From: a virus
Direction: 5' to 3' (one strand)
IMG/VR virus record: IMGVR_UViG_3300035698_024294
Coordinates: 1 to 61,789 of that record
Length of the DNA stretch: 61,789 nt
In this document: positions 3,259-52,375 of the stretch, piece after piece
How the letters are laid out: every line of letters starts with the position of its first letter
How positions within the stretch are numbered: the first letter of the stretch is position 1
Position numbers and translations under genes: made by a program
Notes under the pieces: generated by a model
What the model was told of the DNA's origin: nothing
What the model saw: the letters and a program-made list of their open reading frames with translations, nothing else
Databases searched by the model: none

Positions 3259-3851
3259 CACTTTTCTACCTTTATTCCTTTATTCCTTTTAGCTTCTATG
3301 GATTGATTTTTTCCTGTTAATGCTTCTCTAATCTTATCTCTTGTTTCTTGTAAAACTTCGTGACCTATTAATGTTTCTTTAATCTTATTCCTTGTTTCTT
3401 GTAAAACTTCGTGACCAATCATTTTCTTTCTTCTCTTTTCAATTGTTTCTTTAGATTGTTTTTTACCTAAACTTCTTTGTCTATTTGCTTCATTTTGTTC
3501 AGGTGTTGCTTTTCTTCCAGTTAAGGCAGCACTTATTTTATCCTTTGTATCTTGAGTAAACGGTGCATTAAACCCACCTTCAGTTAAGTTATATCCATTT
3601 GGTGATATACAATTCATTTCATTTATATAAAATTTTTCTTTATCGTTTAACTCATCAAAAGTAAAAGCTTCATCTATTACAGAAAAATCAAAATTTTCTT
3701 TTCCGTATTTATGAATAGCGTTTTTTATAAAACTACGCCCAGTCTTACTCTTGCAACAATGCTGGCTCCACCGTCTCTCTGGTTTCTGTATAGTTTGACC
3801 TATATAGACTTTTCCATTGAGTTTATTTTCAATTTTATAGATACAACCCAT
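3258..3851 (-). CDS. GIY-YIG homing endonuclease
   Basis: 197 residues. The N-terminus has the GIY-YIG core: MGCIYKIENKLNGKVYIGQT, then the Arg of PERRWSQH and the Glu of DKEKFYI, and ends with PNGYNLTEGG. Residues ~100-190 carry NUMOD3-type DNA-binding repeats (IGHEVLQETRNKIKE twice, then LTGKNQS). Such genes spread by cutting cognate alleles. The C-terminal NUMOD1 module has been split off by a frameshift (see 3106-3258). It sits between small late-strand genes with 1 base to the upstream neighbour, so it is probably co-transcribed with them. Confidence 0.85.
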   Translation of the reverse strand: MGCIYKIENKLNGKVYIGQTIQKPERRWSQHCCKSKTGRSFIKNAIHKYGKENFDFSVIDEAFTFDELNDKEKFYINEMNCISPNGYNLTEGGFNAPFTQDTKDKISAALTGRKATPEQNEANRQRSLGKKQSKETIEKRRKKMIGHEVLQETRNKIKETLIGHEVLQETRDKIREALTGKNQSIEAKRNKGIKVEK

Positions 3852-3852
3852 A

Positions 3853-4035
3853 TTATCTACTATCTTCTATTTCTTCTTTTAATTCTACCATATAAGTGCC
3901 AGAAGATGACAAACTATTTATAAAACCTGTAAATGACTTCTTTGTTTTTGTGTTTATAACTTCAACTGTTCTATCATCTTCTTTTTCAATGAATTGCCAG
4001 TCGGTTTTGCCAATTACTATTTTTATTAAATCCAT
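3853..4035 (-). CDS. small hypothetical protein
   Basis: 60 residues, MDLIKIVIGKTDWQFIEKED..., acidic C-terminus. The start codon follows the stop of the upstream gene without a gap, so it is translated as part of the same minus-strand operon. A short beta-rich pattern is visible; no family recognised. Confidence 0.5.
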   Translation of the reverse strand: MDLIKIVIGKTDWQFIEKEDDRTVEVINTKTKKSFTGFINSLSSSGTYMVELKEEIEDSR

Positions 4036-4293
4036 TTATTTGCCTCTTTTGGCCATACTTCTCTTTCGTCTGGCATTTATTTGGGCTCTCTTTCCTTTCA
4101 TTCTACGAGCTGCTTTCTTGCCTGATAATCTTCTTTTTCTTATTTCACTTGGACTCATTCTTACTTCTTTTCGTTGTCCGTCATTATTAAGAACTCTATA
4201 TCCTTCACGGCTGGAAGTATATCTAATCTTCCACTTACCCTTTCTAATTACTCTCTCTTTTTCCATCATTTCCAGTATTTGCTTAAGTTTCAT
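4036..4293 (-). CDS. small very basic late protein
   Basis: 85 residues if it starts at MKLKQILEMMEK (ATG 4293, behind GAAGG). The frame is open further upstream, but that part overlaps the divergent gene at 4357 and looks non-native. The C-terminus is extremely basic (KRRLSGKKAARRMKGKR, RRKRSMAKRGK), suggesting nucleic acid binding, for example DNA condensation in the head. The N-terminal helix fits the capsid-targeting-like pattern seen in other late genes. A GTAAAGATAA motif is 18 bases upstream of the start. Confidence 0.65.
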   Translation of the reverse strand: MKLKQILEMMEKERVIRKGKWKIRYTSSREGYRVLNNDGQRKEVRMSPSEIRKRRLSGKKAARRMKGKRAQINARRKRSMAKRGK

Positions 4294-4310
4294 AGTTAAT
4301 CCTTCAGTAG

Positions 4311-4320
4311 TTATCTTTAC
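4311..4320 (-). promoter_or_regulatory. late-type motif GTAAAGATAA
   Basis: A perfect GTAAAGATAA on the minus strand upstream of the basic protein gene at 4036-4293. Confidence 0.5.
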
Positions 4321-4356
4321 AATAAGCCTAACCCATATATAACAATAGATAATCTT

Positions 4357-5268
4357 ATGGAGAATAACTTGAAGAAAAAAACTAAAGATGATTTTATAAT
4401 AGAAGCAAATAAAATTCATAATAATAAATATGACTATAGTTTAGTTGAATATAAAAATAATAGAACTAAAGTTAAAATTATATGTCTTAAACATGGCGTA
4501 TTTAAAAAGTCTCCAGATAGTCATATCAATCAAAAACAAGGGTGTCCTTTATGCAATAAAATGAAAATATTTAATAAAGATGACTTTATAATAGAAGCAA
4601 ATAAAATTCATAATAATAAATATGATTATAGTTTAGTTGAATATATAGGTTCTAAAATGAAAGTTAAAATTATATGTCCTAAGCATGGAATATTTGAACA
4701 AGTAGTTAATAATCATATTCATCAAAAACAAGGATGTCCTTTATGCTATGGTAATAATAGAAAAACTAAAAATGATTTTATAGCAGAAGCAAATAAAGTT
4801 CATAATAATAAATATGATTATAGTTTAGTTAAATATAAAAACAATAAAACTAAAATTAAAATTATATGTTCTAAGCATGGAATATTCGAACAAGCTCCTC
4901 AAGATCACTTAAAAGGAAGTGGATGCGCTATTTGTAATTCATCAAAGGGAGAAATTAAAATAATAAATTTTTTAGAAAAAAATAATATTGATTTTAAAAC
5001 TCAAAAGACATTCGATGAATGTAAAGATAAGTATAAATTAAGATTTGATTTTTATTTACCTAATAGTAATTCATGTATTGAATATGATGGAATTCAACAC
5101 TTTAAACCTATTTCTTTTTTTGGTGGATACGAAGCGCTAAAGAAAATTAAAAATAGAGATGACATTAAAAACTCGTACTGTAAAGATAATAATATTAGCT
5201 TATTACGAATAAAATATAATGAAATTATAGAAAATAAACTACTGAATTTTATCCGTAAAGGTAATTAA
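4357..5268 (+). CDS. VSR-like (EDxHD) homing endonuclease with zinc-ribbon repeats
   Basis: 303 residues. Three near-identical ~65-residue repeats begin DDFIIEANKIHNNKYDYSL, each followed by a CxKHG...H...GCPLC zinc ribbon (DUF723-like DNA-binding units). The C-terminal ~90 residues form a Vsr/PD-(D/E)xK-like nuclease: LRFDFYLPNSNSCIEYDG followed by IQHF, as in the I-Bth0305I (EDxHD) family. This family is linked to fractured genes and intron mobility. It lies free-standing between the basic protein gene and the late gene at 5292. The ribosome site is weak. Confidence 0.8.
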   Translation: MENNLKKKTKDDFIIEANKIHNNKYDYSLVEYKNNRTKVKIICLKHGVFKKSPDSHINQKQGCPLCNKMKIFNKDDFIIEANKIHNNKYDYSLVEYIGSKMKVKIICPKHGIFEQVVNNHIHQKQGCPLCYGNNRKTKNDFIAEANKVHNNKYDYSLVKYKNNKTKIKIICSKHGIFEQAPQDHLKGSGCAICNSSKGEIKIINFLEKNNIDFKTQKTFDECKDKYKLRFDFYLPNSNSCIEYDGIQHFKPISFFGGYEALKKIKNRDDIKNSYCKDNNISLLRIKYNEIIENKLLNFIRKGN

Positions 5269-8106: not shown

Positions 8107-8955
8107 ATGCCAGAAAATAAAGCTCCAGAAGCACCTAAGATTGATTTATCTAAGATAGTAAACGTTCCAGGTGCTGAGCGAAAGAAAAGAAAGGGTAAGT
8201 TTAATTTCACTGAAGCTGAAGTAACTGCTTTACCATCAAGAGGTATTTTGTATAAGAATGTAACACAAGATACAGATATTCTTAATGGACAGATTCAAAT
8301 GTATCCAATGACAGTAAAAGATGAAGAGATTTTATCAACCAGTAGATTTCTAAAATCAGGTGCTGCAACCAGAATGGTTATTGATAACTGTATTGCTTCT
8401 GATATTGAAGCAAGAGACATTCTTCTATACGATAGTAATTATTTGCTATTTTTCCTTAGAAGTATTTCTTATGGAGATGATTATAAGTTCAAACTAAAGT
8501 GTTCTAATTCATCTTGCGGAATGGAATTTGACCATACAGTTAAAATTTCAGAATTGAAATTTGAAGAAATTCCTGAAGACATAGTAGAACCTTTTGTTGT
8601 TGACTTACCTAAATCAAAATACAAAGTTACATTTGTATTACCACGATTAGCACATTCAGAAGAAATTTATAACAGAAATCGAAAAAGAAAAAAATCAACT
8701 GCTGATTCAGATCAGAGATTGGTTGATAATTTAATTGTGACAACAATTAAAATAACTGCACCTGATGGAACTGAAGTTCCTATGGGAGATTGGGAAGAGT
8801 TTTATGAATCCTTAATCGGAATGGACAGAGCAGTGTTAAACGAAAAGGCGGATTTTTCTACAGGAGTAGATAAACTGGAAGGAGTCGTTTGTCCATACTG
8901 TGAAACGGACTTCTCGGGTACTATCCCTATCGGCGTAGACTTCTTTTGCTTTTAA
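8107..8955 (+). CDS. gp26-like baseplate/tail assembly protein
   Basis: 282 residues, start MPENKAPEAPKIDLSK behind AAGGAGAGC. It matches the T4 gp26 baseplate protein family: LPSRGILYKN near residue 40, MTVKDEEILSTSRFLKSG, then a CxNSSC and CPYC pair (residues ~138 and ~267) likely to bind zinc. The frame ends TTC TTT TGC TTT TAA C. The following +1 frame is open and protein-like for 68 codons (8954-9160) but has no start codon at its head, and Phe-tRNA on TTT can re-pair with TTT one base on. This looks like a programmed +1 frameshift giving a longer product. Confidence 0.8.
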   Translation: MPENKAPEAPKIDLSKIVNVPGAERKKRKGKFNFTEAEVTALPSRGILYKNVTQDTDILNGQIQMYPMTVKDEEILSTSRFLKSGAATRMVIDNCIASDIEARDILLYDSNYLLFFLRSISYGDDYKFKLKCSNSSCGMEFDHTVKISELKFEEIPEDIVEPFVVDLPKSKYKVTFVLPRLAHSEEIYNRNRKRKKSTADSDQRLVDNLIVTTIKITAPDGTEVPMGDWEEFYESLIGMDRAVLNEKADFSTGVDKLEGVVCPYCETDFSGTIPIGVDFFCF

Positions 8956-9160
8956 CGAAGAAAATAGACAAAGAATACAGGAAAGCATCTTTTATTTAAT
9001 CAAGTGGGGGTTTGATTACTCCGACTTGAAAAATATTCCTATTGAGGAATATAATAAATATGTTAAAATGTTGAATCAACACTATAAAGACAAAAAAGAT
9101 GCGACTGATAAAATAAATACAAAAGGAACTGGATAAAATAATCAGTTCCTTTTTTTATTG
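8954..9160 (+). CDS. +1 frameshift extension of the gp26-like protein
   Basis: Codons after the shift read NEENRQRIQESIFYLIKW, then GFDYSDLKNIPIEEYNKYVK and a Lys-rich tail, a pattern like the second domain of phage tail assembly proteins. The frame opens at 8939 and has no ATG before 9068, so translation most likely comes from the preceding gene by +1 slippage at 8950-8953. The last codons run through the terminator hairpin and stop inside the next promoter's -35. A 3'-terminal mutation that separated two once-fused parts is the alternative. Confidence 0.6.
9124..9155 (+). terminator. intrinsic terminator
   Basis: Stem GGAACTG / CAGTTCC with an 11-base loop, followed by seven T. It closes the gp26-like transcript just before the permease promoter. 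Confidence 0.85.
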
Positions 9161-9185
9161 ACAATAAAAGTATAATATGTTATAA
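9157..9185 (+). promoter_or_regulatory. early-type promoter
   Basis: TTGACA, 17-nt spacer ATAAAAGTATAATATGT, TATAAT. Drives the NCS2 permease, whose ATG is 18 bases after the -10. Confidence 0.9.
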
Positions 9186-9202
9186 TTATTTAAGGAGAAA
9201 GA

Positions 9203-10525
9203 ATGATAGGTTTTTTGAAGAGGTTTTTCAAGATTGAGGAAAACGGGACAAGCATTAAGACAGAAATTACTGCTGGTTTTACAACGTTCCTTACAATGGC
9301 ATATATTATTATAGTTAATCCAGCTATATTAAGTGCTGTAGGCGTTCCATTCGCCGGGATAATGTTTGCAACTATTATAGTGGCAAGTGTTTCAAGTATA
9401 CTAATGGGTCTATATGCAAATTTACCATTTGCACTGGCTCCGGGAATGGGACTAAACGCGTTTGTTGCATTTGGAATGATTCTTGGAATGGGAATTAGTT
9501 GGGAAACTGCAATGGGTGCAGTTGTGATTTCTGGTATAGTATTTATTATTATATCATTACCAAAAATTAATCTAAGAGAGAAGATAGTTAAAGCTATCCC
9601 TAAAACGTTACGGCTTGGAATAGCTGCTGGTATCGGTTTATTTTTAGCATTTATAGGTTTAGTAGATGCAGGAATTATAATTCCTAACGCGGCAACCCTA
9701 GTGGGGTTTTCAGGATTAACTCTAAACTTTGTGTTGTTTTTGTTTGGAATTATAGTTACAGGAGTTTTATTAGCCAAGAAAGTTAAAGGTGCTTTAGTAA
9801 TTGGAATAATTTCTACAGCAATTTTAGCGACGGTAACTTCGCTTGCTGGAATTGGAATGGTAGTAACTTTACCAACTGCAATTTTCGCATTACCAAGCCT
9901 TGAGATTTTTGCACACTTTGATATCTTAGGTGCGTTAAGTGTTGGAATGATTGCTCCACTATTTACACTTCTATTTACTGATATGTTTGATTCAATTTCA
10001 ACATTCGTAGGTGTTTCAGAAGTTGGTGGAATGATGGATGAAAATGGAGAACCTAAAAATGTAGGTAAAGCACTTTTAGTAGATGCAGTATCAACAACGA
10101 TTTCAGGTTTGACAGGAACATCACCCGGAACGACTTTTGTAGAAAGTGCATCTGGTGTTGAAGCAGGTGGAAGAACAGGATTGACTGCAGTAATCGCAGG
10201 ACTTTGTTTCTTGCCATTTATGTTTCTAAGTCCATTACTGAGTTTTATTCCAGTTGTGGCAACGGCTCCGGCATTAGTTATTGTTGGATTGTTTATGATG
10301 TCAGCATTGACAAAATTGGATTGGAAAGAATATACAACTTCCATTCCAGCATTTTTGGCAATGATTGCAATTCCGTTAACTTACAGTATTACCACGGGAA
10401 TTGTAGTAGGGTTTATAACGTATATATTTATGATGGTTTTCGCAAAGAAAATCAGAGAAATTCCAGTGACCTTATGGGTCGTAGGGATGTTCTCAGTATT
10501 CTCGTTAATTCTTACAGTAATCTAA
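9203..10525 (+). CDS. NCS2-family purine (guanine/hypoxanthine-type) permease
   Basis: 440 residues, nearly all hydrophobic helices (about 12-13 membrane segments), normal length for the AzgA/PbuG branch of NCS2. Family signatures are intact: EITAGFTTFLTMAYIIIVNP at the N-terminus, ALAPGMGLNAF, LFTDMFDSI, and GTSPGTTFVESASGVEAGGR. These proteins import guanine, hypoxanthine or adenine with protons or sodium across the inner membrane. It has its own early-type promoter (AAGGAG ribosome site) and terminator, so it is an independent unit. A nucleobase importer is an unusual phage gene and most likely feeds purine salvage during replication. Probably captured from a host. Confidence 0.9.
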   Translation: MIGFLKRFFKIEENGTSIKTEITAGFTTFLTMAYIIIVNPAILSAVGVPFAGIMFATIIVASVSSILMGLYANLPFALAPGMGLNAFVAFGMILGMGISWETAMGAVVISGIVFIIISLPKINLREKIVKAIPKTLRLGIAAGIGLFLAFIGLVDAGIIIPNAATLVGFSGLTLNFVLFLFGIIVTGVLLAKKVKGALVIGIISTAILATVTSLAGIGMVVTLPTAIFALPSLEIFAHFDILGALSVGMIAPLFTLLFTDMFDSISTFVGVSEVGGMMDENGEPKNVGKALLVDAVSTTISGLTGTSPGTTFVESASGVEAGGRTGLTAVIAGLCFLPFMFLSPLLSFIPVVATAPALVIVGLFMMSALTKLDWKEYTTSIPAFLAMIAIPLTYSITTGIVVGFITYIFMMVFAKKIREIPVTLWVVGMFSVFSLILTVI

Positions 10526-11779: not shown

Positions 11780-13930
11780 ATGGCAAAGAAAAAAGAAGTA
11801 ATAAAAGACACTGAAATAAATGTCTTCAATAACTTAGATAAACTAATTAACTCTCAGTTCAAGGATGTTATTGACTTATCTAAAGTAGATGGAAAAGTAA
11901 AAACGTGGTATGATACAGGAATTTATAGTCTTAATTATGCTATGTCGAAGCACCTCCTTAAAGCAATACCTTGTGGCAGGATATCATCTTTTGATGGGTT
12001 AAGTGGCTGTCTTTATGATAATACAATTATTAAGATAAATAGAGGTAATAGAAGTAATTATAGAGAATATACAATTGCAGAACTTTATAGAAAGTTTCAT
12101 AAATTTGGTCCTTTTGACAGAGGAGAGAAGCCTTGGAATAATAGTCCAACTAATACGTTTTCATTTAAAGGTGACTCTATAAGATATAATGAAATTACAA
12201 ACGTAATTGATTCTGGAACTAAGGAATGTTTTTTATTAAAAACAGAGTCTGGAAAGATGATAATAGTGTCTTCAGAACATCCGTTTAAAGTTCCTGATGA
12301 TAAAGTAGGAACGAGAGGTGTATTAGAAAAAGATAATTTTGTAGCATTAAAAGATTTGATTGTTGGTGAAGTAGTTATGGTCAAGTCAGACGCTAATAGT
12401 AAAGTCAAACTTGGCGGAAGAAAAAAAGGAAGAAGAGAAGTTTGTGGAGTAGAGTATCATCCGTATGCTTGGAAAAAAGAAACTGGTGATTATTCCTATA
12501 AAAGAATTCATTTTGCAAGACTTGTTGTTGAAGCTGATATGAATAACATATCGATTACAGAAATGATAAACTTTGTAAAAAATGAAGCACACAGATCAAA
12601 GTGTTTAAAGTATTTAACATCAGATTTAATTGTTCATCATAAAGATTTTAATCCTTCTAATGATGTTCTTGAAAATCTTAAGGTTATGACTAAAAAAGAA
12701 CACGACAAACTTCACGCAGAAGAAAAAAACTTTAGAGCGTTTGGGTATAATGAATTTCACTATGAAAAAATAACATCAATTAGTTCTGTTGGTGAAAAAC
12801 ATACATATGATATTAGAATGAAAAAACCATATAGTAATTTTGTTGCTGATGATTTCATAGTCCATAACACAGGAAAATCATTAATTGCAGCAACGGTAAT
12901 GAGAGATCCACAATTAGATATGGTTATTGTTATTGAAACAGAGGGTGGCGGTCAAGCAAAAGAATTAATTGAATTTGCTGGTGTTGATGCAAGCAAGGTA
13001 AGGATTCTTAAAGCTCATACATTTGGTAACTACAAAATTAATAAGAAGAATGGTAAAATTGACGAGGTTTCTGATAATAAATTTCCAGTAAAAATAGATA
13101 CACCTGAAAGTTTTTTTGTAGAAGGTGCAACACGAAAGATTAAGAAAATAGTTAACGCATTACAGTTTAATCCTAAACTTAGAGAAGCAAAGATTTTAAT
13201 TCTTCTTGATTCTCTTGGAAACTTACAATCAGTAAGAGAGTTTGGCGGAACTGTAGATATGGGTGCAAGAGCTCAGGATGTTGGAAAGTTTTTCAGAACT
13301 TTTGATACAGCATTTGAAAGATCTAATATAGCTTTCTTATTTACTAATAAGATATATAATTCTTTCAATATTTACGATCCTTATAAAGCAAATGGTGGAG
13401 TTAACGCAGCATATAATCCATCCGTAAGCGTAAGATTTACAGAGTTATCTGCTAACGAAGAAATTGCAGATAAGGATATGACAAAAGAAAAAGACAGAAG
13501 AAAAACTTCATTAGGAAGTTCTCTGAAGTCAATAAGAGGACAGATTACTAAATCAAGATTTGGTACAGAGCGTCGGAACGCTTGGTTCTTGTTTGATTAT
13601 GCGGTTGGGCCTGTTAGGCATTCTGGTCTATTTACATTATTGAAAGATTTTGGAATAGCGCAGAAAGTAGGAACTTTATATCTTATAGATGGTTGGAATA
13701 ATGATAAATCATTTTACAAGAAAAACTTTATTTCCATTTTGTTAAAAGATGAAGCTAAATCAATTCTTTATTTTCAGGATTTACTTGAGAAGAAAGAAAA
13801 AGAAATGATAGAAGAAAAGAAGAATCTTCAGATTAATGATTTGAGCGAATTAGAAGAAACTGAAGAAGAAGAAGGCGAATACGAAACTGCAGAAATGTTA
13901 ACTGCAATGGTAAAAGACGTAGAAGGTTAG
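11780..13930 (+). CDS. uvsX: UvsX/RecA-like recombinase containing an intein
   Basis: 716 residues as translated; about 429 after removal of the 287-residue intein (residues 77-363). The join restores the P-loop DGLSG + TGKS. Downstream are MVIVIETEGGG, a Walker B-like ILILLDSLGNLQS and a SxRFTELSAN segment; the C-terminus is acidic. UvsX forms filaments on ssDNA and drives strand invasion and recombination-dependent replication with gp32, UvsW and gp46/47, all encoded nearby. Ribosome site AGAGGAATA. It is followed 8 bases on by the GroES-like gene. Confidence 0.9.
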   Translation: MAKKKEVIKDTEINVFNNLDKLINSQFKDVIDLSKVDGKVKTWYDTGIYSLNYAMSKHLLKAIPCGRISSFDGLSGCLYDNTIIKINRGNRSNYREYTIAELYRKFHKFGPFDRGEKPWNNSPTNTFSFKGDSIRYNEITNVIDSGTKECFLLKTESGKMIIVSSEHPFKVPDDKVGTRGVLEKDNFVALKDLIVGEVVMVKSDANSKVKLGGRKKGRREVCGVEYHPYAWKKETGDYSYKRIHFARLVVEADMNNISITEMINFVKNEAHRSKCLKYLTSDLIVHHKDFNPSNDVLENLKVMTKKEHDKLHAEEKNFRAFGYNEFHYEKITSISSVGEKHTYDIRMKKPYSNFVADDFIVHNTGKSLIAATVMRDPQLDMVIVIETEGGGQAKELIEFAGVDASKVRILKAHTFGNYKINKKNGKIDEVSDNKFPVKIDTPESFFVEGATRKIKKIVNALQFNPKLREAKILILLDSLGNLQSVREFGGTVDMGARAQDVGKFFRTFDTAFERSNIAFLFTNKIYNSFNIYDPYKANGGVNAAYNPSVSVRFTELSANEEIADKDMTKEKDRRKTSLGSSLKSIRGQITKSRFGTERRNAWFLFDYAVGPVRHSGLFTLLKDFGIAQKVGTLYLIDGWNNDKSFYKKNFISILLKDEAKSILYFQDLLEKKEKEMIEEKKNLQINDLSELEETEEEEGEYETAEMLTAMVKDVEG
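12008..12868 (+). mobile_element. UvsX intein with HNH endonuclease domain
   Basis: Begins CLYDNTIIKI (Cys1, block A), has block B SSEHPFKVP, an HNH-type core LIVHHKDFNPSNDVLENL followed by KEHDKLH, and ends FVADDFIVHN before Thr+1. It sits inside the ATP-binding P-loop, so recombinase activity needs splicing. The endonuclease looks intact. Confidence 0.92.
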
Positions 13931-14247: not shown

Positions 14248-14411
14248 TGTTAGAGAGTAAAACTAAAAAAAAGATACTCGCCTTGTTAAAAGAGCAAGGC
14301 GGGCATAACGGAATTAGTTATTCAGGAAAAACTGAACTTTATACTATAAAATTTAACAAAGGTATTGTTATCAGTTTATCTTTTGATGAAATGAAGGAAC
14401 TTGAATTTTGA
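14247..14411 (+). CDS. small hypothetical protein between co-chaperonin and uvsW
   Basis: 54 residues, MLESKTKKKILALLKEQGG, ending MKELEF. It overlaps the co-chaperonin stop (TAATG) and the TTG start of uvsW (four bases), so all are translationally coupled. No family recognised. Confidence 0.6.
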   Translation: MLESKTKKKILALLKEQGGHNGISYSGKTELYTIKFNKGIVISLSFDEMKELEF

Positions 14412-16852
14412 AAATATTATTAACTGATTCTTACATAGCAATTGGTGATATATCTAAAGAAGTAATACTCAGCATAAAAGCTGAGTTTACTTATAAGGAC
14501 ATGTCTCAAGCAATGACTTCAAAAGGTTTTAATAAAAGAAAGATCAAAAAAGTATGCTTTGCAAAACAGAAAGGAAGCGCTTTAGTTTTAAGAGCTGGCT
14601 TTATAAAGGAATTACTTTTATTTATTAAAACAAATGGATACTCAGTTTCAGAGTTTCAGGATAAAAGAACTAAAGTAGAAATAAAAAAGTATACAGATGA
14701 ACAGTTAAGAAAACTGTTCGATCCAAAATTCAAATATGTTAAACATCAAATTAATTCGCTTCAAGCTTTATTAAAAACAAATGTAGGAATAATAAAAGCT
14801 CCTACTTCTGCTGGAAAGACTTCTATAATAATAGCTCTTATGAAATTGGTAAATATACCAACATTAATATTAGTTGATAGTGTGTCGTTAGCAACACAAA
14901 CGCTCGAAAGACTTAATGACGCTGGAATAAATTGTGGAATTTGTTATGGTAAAGGAAAAACTGATGGAGACCATGTGATTTCCACAATCGGTTCTTATAA
15001 AAAGCTTGGTGATTTAACCAGATATCAGAGAGTGATTGTAGATGAGTGTTTTCCAGGAGATACGAAAGTATTAACAGAAAATGGAAAAAAAACAATAGCA
15101 TCTTTGGTTAGATCGAAGTCTACTGAAAAAGTTTGGTCTTTCAGCGAAGAAACTGAAGGTTTTGAACTTAAAGAAATTTATAATTGGTATGAAAAGAAAA
15201 CTGAATCTAACTTAATAAAAGTTTGGTTTAACGGAATAGATTTTATTAAATCTACCCCTAATCATAAATATTATGTTTTAGAGAATAATTGTATTTTAGA
15301 AAAAAAGGCTGAAGATCTGAAGATCGGAGATGATTGCGTTGTTATGCCTAAAAAAACAAATAATAATAGAAGCATATCTCCTAAATTAAGTGAAAAACAA
15401 TACAAAGCAGCTATAGGTATGATTATCGGAGATGGTTGTATTCATAAGACGTCAAATCTTGCAAGGTTAGTTTTCTCTCAAGGAGAGGATCAATTAGATT
15501 ACTTGAATTATAAGTTATCTCTTCTTGATAACTTATATCAAAGAGATAATATAGCTGAAGGTGTTTCTGGATATAATGAAGAAAGGATAGTATACAACAC
15601 CTCAACACAGTCTTCTCAGGATTTTCTTGATTTATATGAGAAGTTTTATGTAAATGGTGTAAAAACAATTAAAAATATTATAAAAGAAATAGACGAAGTG
15701 AGCTTAGCTTTTTGGATAATGGATGATGGATGTCTTCAAAAAAAGTCTAAGACGTATGATCTATCAACTCATTCTTTTTCAAAAGAAGATAATGAGTTGA
15801 TAATGAAAGTATTTGAAGAAAAATTCGACATTTTATCAGTATTAAGATACGATAAAAGAATTGGAAAGTATTGGATCTATATAAGAAAAGAATCAACTGA
15901 AACAGTTTCTAGATTAATTTCTAAATATGTTCCTTCCTGTATGAATTATAAGTTGCTTGATGAAGATAAGAATAATTTTAATTTTATTATTGATGATAAG
16001 GTTTCTTATGGGATAAGAAGAGTTAGAAAAATAGAAGAGTTGATTCCTAGATTCAAGAACGTATACAACATATCAGTCAAAGATAATCATAATTATCTAG
16101 TTAATGATAACTTTCTTGTGTCTAATTGTCACATCGTTGGTTCAGCAAGGTTTCAGGAGTTTTTTGAAACAACAAGTTATCCATATAGATATGGATTTTC
16201 AGCAACACCTGATGGAAATGATAAATACAGATATGCTACTATTCGCCAGCATATTGGTGGAGAGATTTTTGAGATTTTTACTGATGAGCTGATGGAAAAT
16301 GAAGTAATGTCAAGACCTAAGATTAAATTTGTTCATGTTGATTGTATTGAAACACCGTCTTGGGATGCTGCGTATGAGAAATGTATTGTAAAGAATGAAT
16401 CCAGAAATAAGAAAATTGTAGAGTTAGCTAATCAGCAAGATGTTCCAACCCTTATTTTATATAAGATTATAGAACATGGAAAGATGCTTGGTGAAATGAT
16501 AGAAGGTTCTGTTGTATTAAATGGTAAAAGTACTGTTGCTGAAAGGCAAGATGCAATTGATAGATTTAAGTCTGGAGAAATTAAGTGTTTAATTGCTTCA
16601 AATATCTTCAAGCAAGGAATTTCTATCAATAACATTCAAACTTTAATAAATGCATCTGGCGGAAAATCAAAGATAGAAGTCCTTCAGAAGATAGGTAGAG
16701 CTCTCAGGCTTCACGAAGGAAAAGATTATGCACTCGTATATGACTTTATGGACGCAGGAAATAAGTATACAGATAGACACTCTCTTCAGAGAGAAAATCT
16801 GTATAGAAAAAATGGTTTTGATGATATAGAGTTTATAGAAGTAGAAGTTTGA
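14408..16852 (+). CDS. uvsW: UvsW-like superfamily 2 helicase containing an intein
   Basis: 814 residues as translated, about 454 after excision of the 360-residue intein (residues 214-573). Starts with TTG. Helicase motifs: Walker A APTSAGKTS (~residue 135), DExH box completed only by splicing (IVDE + CHIVG), motif III FSATP, then the second RecA domain with LIASNIFKQGISI and QKIGRALRL. UvsW rewinds and branch-migrates DNA and removes R-loops in the switch to recombination-dependent replication. It is the last gene of the SSB-uvsX-GroES segment and runs up to an early-type promoter. Confidence 0.88.
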   Translation: MKILLTDSYIAIGDISKEVILSIKAEFTYKDMSQAMTSKGFNKRKIKKVCFAKQKGSALVLRAGFIKELLLFIKTNGYSVSEFQDKRTKVEIKKYTDEQLRKLFDPKFKYVKHQINSLQALLKTNVGIIKAPTSAGKTSIIIALMKLVNIPTLILVDSVSLATQTLERLNDAGINCGICYGKGKTDGDHVISTIGSYKKLGDLTRYQRVIVDECFPGDTKVLTENGKKTIASLVRSKSTEKVWSFSEETEGFELKEIYNWYEKKTESNLIKVWFNGIDFIKSTPNHKYYVLENNCILEKKAEDLKIGDDCVVMPKKTNNNRSISPKLSEKQYKAAIGMIIGDGCIHKTSNLARLVFSQGEDQLDYLNYKLSLLDNLYQRDNIAEGVSGYNEERIVYNTSTQSSQDFLDLYEKFYVNGVKTIKNIIKEIDEVSLAFWIMDDGCLQKKSKTYDLSTHSFSKEDNELIMKVFEEKFDILSVLRYDKRIGKYWIYIRKESTETVSRLISKYVPSCMNYKLLDEDKNNFNFIIDDKVSYGIRRVRKIEELIPRFKNVYNISVKDNHNYLVNDNFLVSNCHIVGSARFQEFFETTSYPYRYGFSATPDGNDKYRYATIRQHIGGEIFEIFTDELMENEVMSRPKIKFVHVDCIETPSWDAAYEKCIVKNESRNKKIVELANQQDVPTLILYKIIEHGKMLGEMIEGSVVLNGKSTVAERQDAIDRFKSGEIKCLIASNIFKQGISINNIQTLINASGGKSKIEVLQKIGRALRLHEGKDYALVYDFMDAGNKYTDRHSLQRENLYRKNGFDDIEFIEVEV
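15047..16126 (+). mobile_element. UvsW intein with LAGLIDADG endonuclease
   Basis: Starts CFPGDTKVLT (block A), has block B TPNHKYYVL, two LAGLIDADG helices AAIGMIIGDG and LAFWIMDDG, and ends YLVNDNFLVSN before Cys+1. The C-terminal residue pair is Ser-Asn rather than His-Asn. Inserted exactly in the DECH box. Confidence 0.92.
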
Positions 16853-34804: not shown

Positions 34805-35476
34805 ATGAGAATAATAAAAAAGGTAACTAAACAAGAATTGAAAGATCGTCTGTATAATATTGATACAGGCGATCTTAATCTTTACAAAGAAGCTAACAAC
34901 GAAAATTCTATTGGTATTTTTCAACTCAATGGAAATCTTGCACACGAAATAATTAAAAAAGTAAAACCTCAAAATTTTGACGAGATAAATGCAGTCTCTG
35001 CTTTCGCAAGACCTGGAACATCAAGTTTCGTCGATAAATACATTAAAAACAGAGAAAATCATAAATCTCAGTATCCAGAAAAAATAGCTGCATTGTTACA
35101 AGAAACTCAATCCGTTGTTTTATATCAGGAACAGGCAATGTCTGTATTTAATAAGATTGGTGGATTTTCTCTTGAAGAGTGTTTAACTGGAGATACTATA
35201 ATTCTTACAAATAAAGGGGATATTTCAATAAAAGAAATAGTAGAAAATAAATTAGATATAAAAGTTTTATCACTGAATGAAGAAACTGGTGAACTTGAAA
35301 TGAAACCAGTGATTAAGTTCTTTAATAATGGAACAAGAGAACTAATAGAAATAGAGATAGAAGCAGGAAATGCTATAAAATGCACTCCAGAACATGAATT
35401 TTATACAAAGAATAGAGGCTGGATAGAAGCTAAAGATTTAACAGAAGAAGATGAACTTTTTCATAACCCATCGTAA
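34805..35476 (+). CDS. dnaE: DnaE third piece fused to N-terminal half of a split intein
   Basis: 223 residues. Residues 1-125 continue DnaE after the catalytic Asp: SIGIFQLNGNLAHEIIKKVK, FDEINAVSAFARPGTSSFVD, SVVLYQEQAMSVFNKIGG (fingers). After FSLEE the intein half starts at Cys126, CLTGDTIILT, with block B CTPEHEFYTK, and ends DELFHNPS with a stop. Residues 126-223 (98 aa) are a normal split-intein N half. The partner is at 36371. An HNH gene separates them, the layout called a fractured gene. The spliced product is DnaE residues joined as FSLEE + CDSIRGLM. Confidence 0.93.
   Translation: MRIIKKVTKQELKDRLYNIDTGDLNLYKEANNENSIGIFQLNGNLAHEIIKKVKPQNFDEINAVSAFARPGTSSFVDKYIKNRENHKSQYPEKIAALLQETQSVVLYQEQAMSVFNKIGGFSLEECLTGDTIILTNKGDISIKEIVENKLDIKVLSLNEETGELEMKPVIKFFNNGTRELIEIEIEAGNAIKCTPEHEFYTKNRGWIEAKDLTEEDELFHNPS
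35180..35473 (+). mobile_element. split intein, N half (DnaE)
   Basis: 98 codons from Cys1 (TGT 35180) to the stop, blocks A and B present. Split is at the canonical position between the horseshoe halves. Confidence 0.92.
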
Positions 35477-35482
35477 AGATAA
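35473..35482 (+). promoter_or_regulatory. late-type motif GTAAAGATAA before the HNH gene
   Basis: A perfect GTAAAGATAA that includes the stop codon of the N-intein gene, followed by TATAAGGAG and the HNH start. If functional, it would give the endonuclease late expression separate from the polymerase pieces. Confidence 0.45.
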
Positions 35483-35496
35483 TATAAGGAGATACG

Positions 35497-36381
35497 ATGA
35501 ACTATGAAAAAAACTATAATGATTATATTAATTATGTTAAATCTTTAAATAGAAAAAAAAGTGACTGTATGTATTATGAATTACATCATATAATCCCTAG
35601 AAGCTTAAAAGGAACAAACGATGACGGCAATTTAGTTTTGTTGACATATAGAGAGCATTATTTAGCCCATTTTTTATTATGGAAAATTTATAGCAATAAA
35701 GAAATGATGTATTCTTTTTGGTTAATGAATAACACAAAGAGCAAAGTTAAGTTTAACATAAGTTCAAGATTATATGAAAGTCTAAAAACTTCTTTTATAA
35801 AGGCACAAGAGAAAAAAGTTATTTGTTTAGAAACAGGTAGAGTTTTCGATTCTATGAAAAAAGCTTCCTCTTTTTATGACTTAACAAGTGCAGACGGGAT
35901 AAGGATTTCAATAAAGAATAAAAACAGTATTTCAGCTGGATATCATTGGGATTATTATTATGATAATATAGATTATACAAGAGATAAGTTTTACAAAAAA
36001 CAAAAAAATGTATATACTGTTATTAGGCTAGAGGACGTGGAAAAATATCTCTCTTATAAAGAGGCTGGAATAGATAATAACATAACAGGATCTACTATTT
36101 GTGATGCTGCAACTGGCAGAACAAAAACAGCCAATGGATATCATTGGAGTAAATTTGATAGCCTTGTTGATTATACTAAAAATAAGTTTTATAAAAAAGA
36201 AAGAATGTCATTTCCTTCTGGATACAAAAAAGTTGTTTGTATCGAAACAGGAAAAAAATATAATTCTCAGCAAGAAGCTGCTAGAGACATAGGATATAAA
36301 ATATCTGGAGATATAGGCAGATGTTGCGACGGAAAATTGAAGTCTTGTGGCGGATTTCGCTGGAGAAGAAATGAAAATTAA
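35497..36381 (+). CDS. HNH endonuclease with NUMOD1 repeats, inside the split-intein gap
   Basis: 294 residues. HNH core YYELHHIIPRSLKGTNDDGN, then LVLLTYREHYLAHFLL. The rest holds three NUMOD1-like DNA-binding repeats: VICLETGRVFDSMKKAS, an internal copy YLSYKEAGIDNNITGSTI, and VVCIETGKKYNSQQEAA, each ending in (A/G)GYHW or CGGFRW. It lies exactly between the two intein halves and overlaps the C half by 11 bases. It presumably targets intein-free dnaE. Confidence 0.88.
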   Translation: MNYEKNYNDYINYVKSLNRKKSDCMYYELHHIIPRSLKGTNDDGNLVLLTYREHYLAHFLLWKIYSNKEMMYSFWLMNNTKSKVKFNISSRLYESLKTSFIKAQEKKVICLETGRVFDSMKKASSFYDLTSADGIRISIKNKNSISAGYHWDYYYDNIDYTRDKFYKKQKNVYTVIRLEDVEKYLSYKEAGIDNNITGSTICDAATGRTKTANGYHWSKFDSLVDYTKNKFYKKERMSFPSGYKKVVCIETGKKYNSQQEAARDIGYKISGDIGRCCDGKLKSCGGFRWRRNEN

Positions 36382-36472
36382 AAACATAAAAAAAATTGAA
36401 TCAGAAACTGTTTACGATATAAAAGTTAAAGATAACCATAACTTTTTTGCTAATAACGTTTTGGTTCATAAT
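36371..36472 (+). mobile_element. split intein, C half (DnaE)
   Basis: 34 codons ending His-Asn before Cys+1 (36473), matching the N half at 35180. Confidence 0.92.
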
Positions 36473-37615
36473 TGCGATAGTATTCGTGGTCTTATGAAAA
36501 AACTTGGAAAGGCTGAAAAAAAGAAAGAAGATCTTGATAAATGGGATGTCGTTATTAAACGATTTACAAAAGGAGCACAAGAAACTGGTATCTCTTTAAA
36601 AGATGCAAAAAATGTTGCTAGCGATATGCTTAAAATGTCGTCGTACCAATTTAATAAATCTCATGCAACTGCATATACTTTTATTGCAGCTCAAACTTTG
36701 TATTTATCATATTACTTTAGAAAATACTTTTATGCGTCAGTTCTCCATTACGAGGTAGGACGAGATAAGTATCTTTTAGAGAGATTAAAATCTGTTAAGT
36801 CTCAAGGGTTTAACATACTTCCTCCAGATGTAAACAAATCAAAAATAAGTTTATCTCCTGTTAAAGGAAGCGCAAACTCTATTATCTTTGGATTATATGA
36901 TGTTAAAGGTATTGGAGAAGTTCCGGCAACTACTATTAAATCGTTACAACCATTTGATTCAATGATAGATTTCATTCTTAAAATTCAGGGTAAAAGAATT
37001 TCTATTACTGTTATAAAGGCTCTCGTTGTAGCAGGTGCTTTTGATGATATAGAGGATTATGATAAGAAGATTTTATATGAAGCTGTTCTTTTATTCTGGA
37101 AGGATAAGAAGTCGACAAAAGTTCCAGAAAAGTTAGAGCAGATTTGGGATGCTTCTTTACAAACAGTTATAGAGACAACTCTTCCAGCTACGTTTGAGGA
37201 ACAGAAAGACTATGAAAGAAAATCTCTTGGGTTTAATTTCTTTATAAATTCTTTCACAGAAGAGTTCTTATCAGCAATTGATGTTCTTGTCAAGAAAGGA
37301 TTAGCTTATCCGTCAATAGATAAAGTAAGAAAAGGATCTGCTAAAGTTCCTGTAGTTGTTAATAAGATTAAAACCCTTAACGACAAGAATGGTAAAGAAA
37401 TGGCTTTTCTTGATTTAGAAGATCAATTAGGCCAAGACTTAAGCGTTCCAATATTTCAAAGTTTTTGGAAGGTTCTGAAGACAAGGTTTGTTGAAGGTAA
37501 GATGCATATGATAAATTTGTATCTTGATGATGATCAGGTTATGTTCGGAAAGAGTGGATATGTCAGGAAGGATATGGAAATTTCAAGAATGGTGAAGAGA
37601 TTAGATAACCTGTAA
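36371..37615 (+). CDS. dnaE: C-terminal half of split intein fused to DnaE C-terminal piece
   Basis: 414 residues from ATG 36371 (TGGAGAAGAA); an upstream ATG at 36347 lies within the HNH gene. Residues 1-34, MKIKNIKKIESETVYDIKVK to NNVLVHN, are the intein C half (blocks F and G), followed by Cys+1. DnaE continues CDSIRGLMKKLGKAEKKKED, SSYQFNKSHATAYTFIAAQT (fingers), GFNILPPDVNKS, YDVKGIGEVPA (HhH) and an OB-like C-terminal region. A clear clamp-binding peptide is not visible. About 505 DnaE residues result after trans-splicing with the 34805 product. Confidence 0.93.
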   Translation: MKIKNIKKIESETVYDIKVKDNHNFFANNVLVHNCDSIRGLMKKLGKAEKKKEDLDKWDVVIKRFTKGAQETGISLKDAKNVASDMLKMSSYQFNKSHATAYTFIAAQTLYLSYYFRKYFYASVLHYEVGRDKYLLERLKSVKSQGFNILPPDVNKSKISLSPVKGSANSIIFGLYDVKGIGEVPATTIKSLQPFDSMIDFILKIQGKRISITVIKALVVAGAFDDIEDYDKKILYEAVLLFWKDKKSTKVPEKLEQIWDASLQTVIETTLPATFEEQKDYERKSLGFNFFINSFTEEFLSAIDVLVKKGLAYPSIDKVRKGSAKVPVVVNKIKTLNDKNGKEMAFLDLEDQLGQDLSVPIFQSFWKVLKTRFVEGKMHMINLYLDDDQVMFGKSGYVRKDMEISRMVKRLDNL

Positions 37616-41366: not shown

Positions 41367-41797
41367 TGGAAAAAAAATTAGGAATTTATGCAGGTAGTTT
41401 TAATCCATATCATATTGGGCATGAAGATATTTACCGACAAGCTTCTAAAGTTTTTGATGAAGTTATGATAGCACAATGTTATGATAGAGGAAAGGGTCAG
41501 CCAGCAAATCTTAAGCTAAAAGGAAGAAATGTTATTCACCATGGAGGACTTTTATATGAACTGTTTTATAAAGAATATCAAGTAGGAAAGTTTCTTGTCA
41601 GAGGGCTTAGAACGAGTTTCGATGTTGGGTATGAAAGTGATTTAAGAAATGTGCTTCTCGATTTTGATCCAACAATCAAAATCGTATATTTCTTTTGTAA
41701 GAAAGAACATGAACATGTATCTTCTTCAATGATAAGAAGTTTATATGGTTTTGGAGATGAAAATTATAAAAAATATTTAGTAGAGGGAGATATATAG
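41366..41797 (+). CDS. coaD: phosphopantetheine adenylyltransferase-like nucleotidyltransferase
   Basis: 143 residues, slightly short for CoaD (~160). Motifs: LGIYAGSFNPYHIGHEDI (HxGH nucleotide-binding site), FLVRGLRTSFDVGYESDL (RG substrate loop), then HVSSSMIRSL near the end, as in CoaD and related adenylyltransferases. CoaD transfers AMP to phosphopantetheine in coenzyme A synthesis; a change of substrate in this phage protein is possible. Start overlaps the exonuclease stop and its stop overlaps the next GTG. Confidence 0.75.
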   Translation: MEKKLGIYAGSFNPYHIGHEDIYRQASKVFDEVMIAQCYDRGKGQPANLKLKGRNVIHHGGLLYELFYKEYQVGKFLVRGLRTSFDVGYESDLRNVLLDFDPTIKIVYFFCKKEHEHVSSSMIRSLYGFGDENYKKYLVEGDI

Positions 41798-42819
41798 TGA
41801 TAGTTATAGGAAGTGGAAATTGTGGTTCTAAGTTAGCTACTTTATTTGACGATGATCCAATTCTAATTTCTACAGCTCATCAGGATTCGATGAACTTTAG
41901 TGATTACAAAGTAAATACGTTTACAGACGAAGGATGTGGTAAAAAATATGGAACTGGAGTTAAACTCTGGAATACTCATCTTAAGGAACTTGAAGCTGTA
42001 TTTGAAAAAGTAGATAACGAACAGGTCATTATTTTCTCAAGTATGGGCGGAGGTTCAGGAAGTTCTTCTCTTCAATTTATATCTAAGATTTTAATTGAAA
42101 AGGGAAATGATGTTTTAATTATTGGAGTTTTGCCTTTCAAGAAAGAAGTGGTTCCTCCTTTGGCAAATGCAGTTCAATCAATTAGCAGCCTTATGCCTTT
42201 GATAAATGATATAACAATTATGTTATTCGATAATCAAATATTATTAAAAGAACATAACAATGACTGGACTGAAGTAAATAACAATATAGTTAGAAAAGTA
42301 AATTATGCTGTTAATTTAATTGATAATCATTCAGTTGATGGATATTCTCCATTAACTATTGATCAGTCAGAAGTTGAATCTGTAGTGTTTGGTGGTGGAT
42401 TTTTAGATGTATCGGATGTGTTTCTTGAAGAAAATCCGCCTAAGTTTCAATATGGAAGATTAGACAAAGAAACAAAAAATGTAATGATTGCAATGTTTGT
42501 AGATGAAATGGTTGAAGATGATAAGCTTGAAGACTATCACAAAAAGTTAACTGAGGTTCAAAGCAAATACGCAGGAAGAGCAAAGAACGCAAGGATTGTT
42601 CCTGGCATAATTCGAGGAAGAGTTCTAAATTCATATTCAGAAGAAAAAGTAACTGATAGAGCTTATATCACAATTGCTTCTGGGTTGAATGTAGAAAAGT
42701 ATCTTGTTCGAATAGAGAAACTTAGAGATTTTGCTGTAGAGAAGGCAACTATTTTTTCCAGTAAGATTGTTGGAAGAAAAGTTGTTAGCAATAAAGAAAC
42801 AAAGATACTGGATATTTAA
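41797..42819 (+). CDS. FtsZ/tubulin-superfamily GTPase
   Basis: 340 residues from GTG. The N-terminal nucleotide loop is MIVIGSGNCGSKLATLF, the tubulin signature is SMGGGSGSSSLQF (residues ~83-92; GGGTGTG in FtsZ), followed by IIGVLPFKKEV as in FtsZ GVVTxPF, and LFDNQILL like the FtsZ N-x-x-L segment. A helix with NNNIVRKVNYAVNLI follows. The C-terminal domain is shorter than in FtsZ and has no conserved tail. Phage tubulins (PhuZ, TubZ-like) form filaments that position phage DNA; alternatively this protein interferes with host FtsZ. It is cotranscribed with replication-type genes. Confidence 0.78.
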   Translation: MIVIGSGNCGSKLATLFDDDPILISTAHQDSMNFSDYKVNTFTDEGCGKKYGTGVKLWNTHLKELEAVFEKVDNEQVIIFSSMGGGSGSSSLQFISKILIEKGNDVLIIGVLPFKKEVVPPLANAVQSISSLMPLINDITIMLFDNQILLKEHNNDWTEVNNNIVRKVNYAVNLIDNHSVDGYSPLTIDQSEVESVVFGGGFLDVSDVFLEENPPKFQYGRLDKETKNVMIAMFVDEMVEDDKLEDYHKKLTEVQSKYAGRAKNARIVPGIIRGRVLNSYSEEKVTDRAYITIASGLNVEKYLVRIEKLRDFAVEKATIFSSKIVGRKVVSNKETKILDI

Positions 42820-51628: not shown

Positions 51629-52375
51629 ATGAATAAATTCAAAGATTACTTAAAAAACAAAGAAAATCAAAACAAACCAATCGATAAAAAAACTCCTTTC
51701 AAAAACTTTATAGATGAAAAAGAAGATTTAGGGTTTCCTTTATTTGCTGAAGGTTCTAACTTTTTTTTCGTTTCTGAAGGGTACATTAAGTTCAATAATG
51801 AATATGAAGAGATTGTAGAACTCTTAGAGGTCAACACAGACAAAGAAAACTTCATTAATATAAACGTTATAAAAGATAAATTAGAATGGAAGTTTATTGA
51901 TGAAACTATTTGGAGAGTGGCTGAAAATACAAATAATATTTTATTAGATGAAAACTTCATAGAAATACATACAGATAAAAACTGGAATAAGATAAGTATA
52001 TTAAAAGAAGAAGAAAGTAGGCTTAAGGGGTCTAACGGTAAAGACGGTGTTGCTGGAAAAGATGGTATTGTTGGAAAAGACGGCATTGCTGGAAAAGATG
52101 GTATTGCTGGAAAAACTGGTGAACAAGGACATAAAGGAATTTCCGGAAAAGATGGTGTTGCTGGAAAAGACGGTATTGACGGAAAAGATGGTCTTGCCGG
52201 TAAAAACGGAATTGATGGTAGAGATAGTAAAGAAATTCAGCTCAAAAGTGTTTTTAAAAAAATCATGTGGAAATACAAGGGCGAACCAAAATGGACTTTA
52301 CTCTTAGATTTAGATAAAAAAACAGATAAAGAAAAGATTAAAGATTTAGTTGGAAAAGAAGAAAAAAACTATTAA
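51629..52375 (+). CDS. virion protein with collagen-like repeats
   Basis: 248 residues. The N-terminus MNKFKDYLKNKENQ resembles other late starts. Residues ~133-192 form an unbroken Gly-X-Y tract, mostly GKDG(V/I)A units, typical of trimeric collagen-like stalks in phage fibres and decoration proteins. A Lys-rich C-terminal domain follows. The preceding domain contains two short similar segments (ETIWRVAENTNN, DKNWNKISIL). Probably a fibre or head decoration. It ends before a terminator. Confidence 0.75.
   Translation: MNKFKDYLKNKENQNKPIDKKTPFKNFIDEKEDLGFPLFAEGSNFFFVSEGYIKFNNEYEEIVELLEVNTDKENFININVIKDKLEWKFIDETIWRVAENTNNILLDENFIEIHTDKNWNKISILKEEESRLKGSNGKDGVAGKDGIVGKDGIAGKDGIAGKTGEQGHKGISGKDGVAGKDGIDGKDGLAGKNGIDGRDSKEIQLKSVFKKIMWKYKGEPKWTLLLDLDKKTDKEKIKDLVGKEEKNY

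Follow-up and report, generated by a model that had tools for sequence, protein, structure and literature searches.

The window, that is, the whole stretch of DNA analysed, is the 61,789-base IMG/VR virus record IMGVR_UViG_3300035698_024294, a single record. The gene at positions 8107-8955 is a member of the T4 gp26 baseplate family PF12322 (E 1.2e-14, 55 bits against a cut-off of 24.5) and matches phrog_150 as well (E 4.8e-16). The features at and beyond its 3' end are the following.

8107-8955, + strand: 0-frame gene of the gp26-like type, 282 aa before the TAA stop; short form, also 'G' or TAC-N; PF12322, phrog_150
8944-8949, + strand: likely slip site; P-site TTT 8944-8946 would re-pair with TTT 8945-8947, with the rare TGC 8947-8949 in the A site
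8948-9136, + strand: extension in the +1 frame, 62 codons and the TAA 9134-9136; also 'T' or TAC-C
8950-8955, + strand: second candidate slip site, proposed in an earlier note on this DNA; TTT, then the stop TAA in the A site
8952-9031, + strand: candidate stimulatory RNA structure, weak; MFE -18.9, z -3.9 in the window
9123-9156, + strand: terminator-like hairpin, found by eye; stem of 9 bp (9123-9131/9143-9151) with a loop of 11 nt, then a run of Ts

The gene ends with TTC(8941) TTT(8944) TGC(8947) TTT(8950) TAA(8953) C. From 8939 onwards the +1 frame has no stop before the TAA at 9134-9136. This confirms the two-frame arrangement described in the earlier note, a stop in TTT TAA C followed by an open +1 frame. 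Counted from stop to stop this frame has 65 codons and not the 68 given there; 62 codons would be used with a shift at 8944-8946, and 60 beyond a shift at 8950-8952. The note's observation that a start codon is missing near the head of the +1 frame was correct: ATG, GTG and TTG are absent for approximately 25 codons, the first TTG being at 9026 and the first ATG at 9068. Joining the gene to the extension in silico yields a protein of 342 aa.

A scan of viral contigs provided six close relatives of the window, five with 82-86% identity (L009-L013) and one with 57% (L014). All six keep both frames and read TTY TTT CG[GC] TTT TAA, where the window reads TTC TTT TGC TTT TAA. For a wider comparison 94 loci were assembled from named phages and 79 of 80 further contigs (L017 repeats L011); the gene runs off the contig end in 7, and the remaining 87 were reduced to 81 by removing near-duplicates at 90%. 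A +1 frame that crosses the stop and continues for at least 40 codons is present in 77 of these 81 non-redundant loci, the other frame in 6/81. Three of the four loci counted as lacking it (L025, L029 and L094) run to the end of the contig without meeting a stop in this frame, and the fourth (L004) shifts -1. Among control ORFs of at least 150 aa from the same loci a comparable +1 frame was found in 40/360, in 6 of them without an ATG. Within the window clade (the window and L009-L013) the +1 codons have a pN of 0.23 and a pS of 0.78, with pN below pS in 15/15 pairs; judged by these substitutions, the extension is under purifying selection. A conserved second frame that overlaps the 3' end of the gene and has no start of its own is the arrangement of genes of the G/GT kind. 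The check suggested in the earlier note, whether relatives encode the same two frames, came out in favour of its likely programmed +1 frameshift in the close relatives and in the larger set, and a programmed +1 shift at the end of the gp26-like gene is well supported by the comparison.

The slip site was examined in an alignment of 80 loci anchored on the final Phe pair read in frame 0. The P-site codon before the shift is TTT in 76/80 and CTT in 2/80, and the A-site codon is TGG in 64, TTC in 5, CGG in 4, and TGC, CGC, CGT, AGT, CAC, TAC and TTT in one locus each. A tRNA that left TTT for the codon one base ahead would meet TTT or TTC in 75/80; re-pairing at the aligned codon would be poor in LIS04 (TTT to TTA) and in two other loci (CTA to TAT and TTC to TCT). 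These figures sustain the part of the earlier note in which tRNA-Phe slips from TTT to TTT, and not the part that puts a stop codon into the A site. A slip at TTT 8950-8952 before TAA, in the manner of prfB, with the upstream TTT TGC merely coding, is a possibility that we consider rather unlikely. TTT TAA lies 6 nt downstream of TTT 8944-8946 and is kept in all seven members of the window clade (the window and L009-L014), and in documented cases +1 shifting is favoured by a stop codon at the A site, according to a passage of PMC3498833; it is, however, absent from the rest of the family, where the upstream TTT persists, and the bases TTTTAAY are forced by the Phe-Asn residues of the +1 frame. 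Because the upstream site is common to the family and TTT TAA is restricted to one clade, the more likely slip codon is TTT 8944-8946, where the A site would hold the sense codon TGC.

The A-site codons of the window clade are among the rarest of the window. In 12,524 codons from 35 window ORFs CCC is the rarest (5 occurrences), CGC and CGG are tied in second place (7 each) and TGC is fourth (18). This rarity supports the site and does not prove it, since coding in the +1 frame leaves only TGG/CGG or TGC/CGC to choose from; within that constraint, five close relatives of the window all use CGG and never TGG.

In prfB the +1 site is CUU UGA. The likeness to it that the earlier note had seen turned out to be a loose one: in both cases a pyrimidine-rich P-site codon would re-pair one base forward, and two family members have CTT TGG at the slip site, but most members have a sense codon in the A site and the family shows no enrichment for a Shine-Dalgarno sequence. 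Shine-Dalgarno-like pairing was found at 10% of the sites and at 8% of the controls over the 80 loci, and a stimulator of this type was rejected. A conserved downstream RNA structure was likewise rejected: although strong in the window, the structure is not conserved in the family, with a mean z of -0.66 over 79 relatives and 16% of them below -2. A further parallel is the PA-X site UCC_UUU_CGU (PMC3498833), which combines a UUU P site, a slow CGN A site and a +1 shift, much as the relatives of the window have UUY UUU CGG/CGC, whereas PA-X belongs to an unrelated eukaryotic virus gene for which an efficiency of about 1% is given in the same source. Slippage from UUU to UUC with a slow A-site codon is favoured by the peptide evidence cited there, and the text consulted also holds its authors' prediction of a class of UUU_C sites (PMC3498833). 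The tail gene of HSTV-2 is described in a passage of PMC5009743 as a myovirus G-T gene with very likely a +1 shift; it is from an archaeal virus and is likened to the window by the direction of the shift only.

The relation to the T4 proteins bears on what the extension is. The full PF12322 profile is matched by residues 1-201 of T4 gp51 (3.9e-52), and gp26 also matches PF12322 over its full length, so that the two are paralogues (hhalign E 3.8e-20). The alignment of the gp51 family with the in-silico fusion spans 228 columns, crossing the junction and reaching the end of the fusion (E 4.3e-8); the match of this family is 8.2e-5 with the short form alone, 1.9e-3 with the extension alone and 0.46 with the reversed extension used as control. 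With the T4 gp26 family, the short form gives a match (1.2e-8) and the extension does not (0.29); T4 gp26 has no comparable frameshift extension. The C-terminal family phrog_634 ('baseplate hub assembly catalyst') is matched by gp51 (1.2e-23) and by the extensions of S13 (1e-10) and OLIVR5 (2e-7); the +1 extension of one relative, taken alone, matches it weakly (E 0.041). The in-silico fusion has the composition of gp51, a gp26-like domain followed by a phrog_634 C-terminal domain. In T4 there are two genes, of which gp26 matches the short form and gp51 the fusion.

A rival reading takes the extension as a separate small protein, started within the overlap by reinitiation or at an unusual start codon; in its favour, 25/77 of the +1 loci have an ATG between -45 and +60. 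A small gene is also annotated at this place in SP-15, immuto, S-SSM5, OLIVR5 and Melnitz-3. On the other hand, 52/77 have no ATG in that interval and 28/77 have no ATG, GTG or TTG; in the window, where none of the three occurs before 9026, conserved residues upstream of the first start would drop out of such a protein, and in T4 gp51 the extension domain is fused to the gp26-like domain. We regard a separate protein as improbable.

Still less probable is RNA polymerase slippage or a -2 ribosomal shift in place of the +1 shift. Transcriptional slippage needs longer runs, and a run of seven Ts is indeed present in most +1 relatives, but the T runs of the window are only four long and those of L009 and L014 are three at the upstream site, while a -2 move from 8944-8946 would land on TCT, which tRNA-Phe cannot read; for the window clade both mechanisms were rejected on run length and pairing. 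A sequencing error or a decayed gene, conceivable in a single IMG/VR record, has a negligible probability and was rejected, as independent contigs retain both frames and purifying selection acts on the +1 frame (see above); the outcome that the earlier note had named as pointing to such an error, relatives with one fused frame and a single-base difference, was decided in favour of the shift.

The predicted structure of the short form has a mean pLDDT of 87. A fold search with its residues 31-122 placed the HK97 tail assembly chaperone 2ob9 first (77 residues, 3.2 A) with a modest Z of 5.8, which is below the safe level, as values under 8 may reflect a common arrangement; the next match has a Z of 3.3. 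Foldseek alone gave an E of 2.1. In the model of the fusion (poor as a whole, mean pLDDT 58.5) the extension is predicted to form three helices at residues 291-340 with a pLDDT of about 88-95. The fold search with this model, which returned no match above Z 3.3, was uninformative because the first domain had folded badly. Among solved chains no convincing match was found for the gp26 and gp51 families, and T4 gp25, gp27 and gp29 do have matches; this is weak evidence because T4 gp28 is also without one.

In LIS04 the gp26-like gene is annotated between the tail tube and tape measure genes, in immuto the order is tail completion gene, gp26-like gene and tape measure gene, and SP-15 shows this order too, with a 'putative tail protein'. 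The place of the gene in these annotated relatives is that of lambda G/T. In the window clade the gene does not adjoin a tape measure gene, and in the window it is followed by a permease gene; T4 genes 26 and 51 likewise do not directly precede gene 29. Tape measure PHROG families were matched by 2 of 8 large downstream ORFs tested. In a second test, which comprised 7 downstream ORFs and, as the eighth protein, T4 gp29 itself, they were the best match of one ORF (LIS04); the ORF downstream in BRock had a weak tape measure match behind stronger tail families. Because adjacency to a tape measure gene is not found in the window, the gene is referred to here as a PF12322 member that would work like a tail assembly chaperone.

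Lambda gpG/gpGT and HK97 gp13 likewise consist of a short form and a long form made by frameshifting near the 3' end, and several relatives of the window resemble them in having the gene upstream of the tape measure gene, with the modest N-domain fold match to 2ob9 as a possible further similarity. The comparison is one of arrangement and of this possible likeness in fold, and the shift in lambda is -1 according to the relevant passage of PMC5009743, in contrast to +1 in the window. We estimate at roughly 0.82 the probability that the locus encodes a lambda G/GT-type tail assembly chaperone that belongs to the T4-gp26 (PF12322) family and uses a +1 shift.

From the two frames, their conservation, the selection and the homology to gp26 and gp51 we infer the shift, the slip codon, the ratio of the products and the chaperone role as follows. 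Most ribosomes would stop at 8953 and produce the short protein of 282 aa. A minority would pause with tRNA-Phe on TTT 8944-8946 because of the rare codon TGC that comes next; the tRNA would slip +1 onto TTT 8945-8947, and decoding would continue with GCT TTT AAC to 9136, giving the 342-aa fusion with a small, presumably helical domain at its C-terminus. If lambda is a guide, the part common to both forms may form a coat on the tape measure protein, the extension may recruit tail tube subunits, and both forms would leave before the tail is completed.

T4-like chaperones share PF12322 and the short and long forms with the window, but many T4-like relatives carry a -1 site, T TTT TT[CT], where the window would shift +1 at TTT TGC. 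The -1 heptamer was found at the same place in 12/12 named T4-like phages examined, all of which had either looked -1 previously or were newly fetched, and in 35/35 non-redundant cyanophage-type loci; its carriers include S-SSM5, PhiW-14, nt-1 and PBECO4. The +1 form was found in RM378, LuckySocke and BRock. In a tree of the short domain T4 gp26 and gp51 each form one clade; the two are sisters (98/95) and lie inside a branch with -1 phages (100/100). The +1/-1 label changes at least 3 times on this tree, which is unrooted and has some weak placements. The locus at 3656-4765 of the huge phage LR756511 (L004) falls among the +1 relatives with weak support, yet has a -1 site, T TTT TTC; its 0 frame extends about 20 codons further. 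These data make it fairly likely, with less confidence than for the locus itself, that a large, mostly uncultivated branch of contractile-tailed phages shifts +1 at UUU before slow UGG/CGG/CGC/UGC, that its sisters shift -1 at U UUU UU[CU], that the direction has switched at least three times at the same Phe-Phe codons with the fusion retained, and that T4 has split the gene into two.

The gene family, the T4 split and the -1 sites are already known. Vladimirov, Gautam and Davidson reportedly assigned chaperone roles to T4 genes 26 and 51 in 2022 and described frameshifting in other T4-like groups. Their 2022 report of T4-like tail assembly chaperone genes is cited in PMC12846349, in a sentence that concerns poly-T -1 sites; by this citation, the remark of the earlier note that such shifts were 'not described for gp26' is mistaken for the family. 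A passage of a 2016 review has G-T frameshifting conserved in long-tailed phages 'except T4' (PMC5009743). In a T4 review gp26 and gp51 are listed as hub assembly chaperones; the review also states that genetic studies support the presence of gp26 in the T4 hub, which speaks against the reading given here (PMC3004832). In the open-access literature searched, no description of a +1 shift in gp26-like genes was found, and the +1 branch and the repeated switching between +1 and -1 look unreported.

The family would represent a natural series in which the same two products are made while the direction of the shift changes, ending with two genes in T4. With 80 aligned shift sites at which a sense codon occupies the A site, the codon rules of bacterial +1 shifts become testable, and the annotation of small genes that are at present listed as individual hypothetical proteins or as gp51 would be corrected. 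In S-SSM5, OLIVR5 and Melnitz-3 the -1 extensions carry the annotation gp51 or hub assembly protein. Small CDSs are present at the position of the extension at 4767-4886 of L003 (SP-15), 4830-4940 of L007 (immuto) and 2199-2381 of L113 (S-SSM5), and these three may be mis-annotated parts of the fusion.

The terminator-like hairpin overlaps the end of the extension and was missed by a pattern search that allowed loops of 3-8. It is followed by a promoter-like site at 9158-9186 (12-of-12 match) and by the permease gene at 9203, and from this order the transcript appears to end with the extension, where the hairpin would terminate it. The permease gene (9203-10525, + strand) is of the xanthine/uracil type (PF00860) and lies in a phage contig; its PHROG, phrog_27398, is labelled 'tail protein', a label that looks wrong. 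Several other + strand ORFs of the window were noted by eye. Three have an intein-interrupted look and resemble UvsX (11780-13930), a UvsW-type helicase (14408-16852) and a bacterial-type DNA polymerase III alpha subunit (34805-37615), and the ORF at 41797-42819 has a GGGSGS motif and a layout like that of an FtsZ/tubulin protein. The ORF at 51629-52375 (+ strand) contains collagen-like Gly-X-Y repeats (GKDGVAGKDG...).
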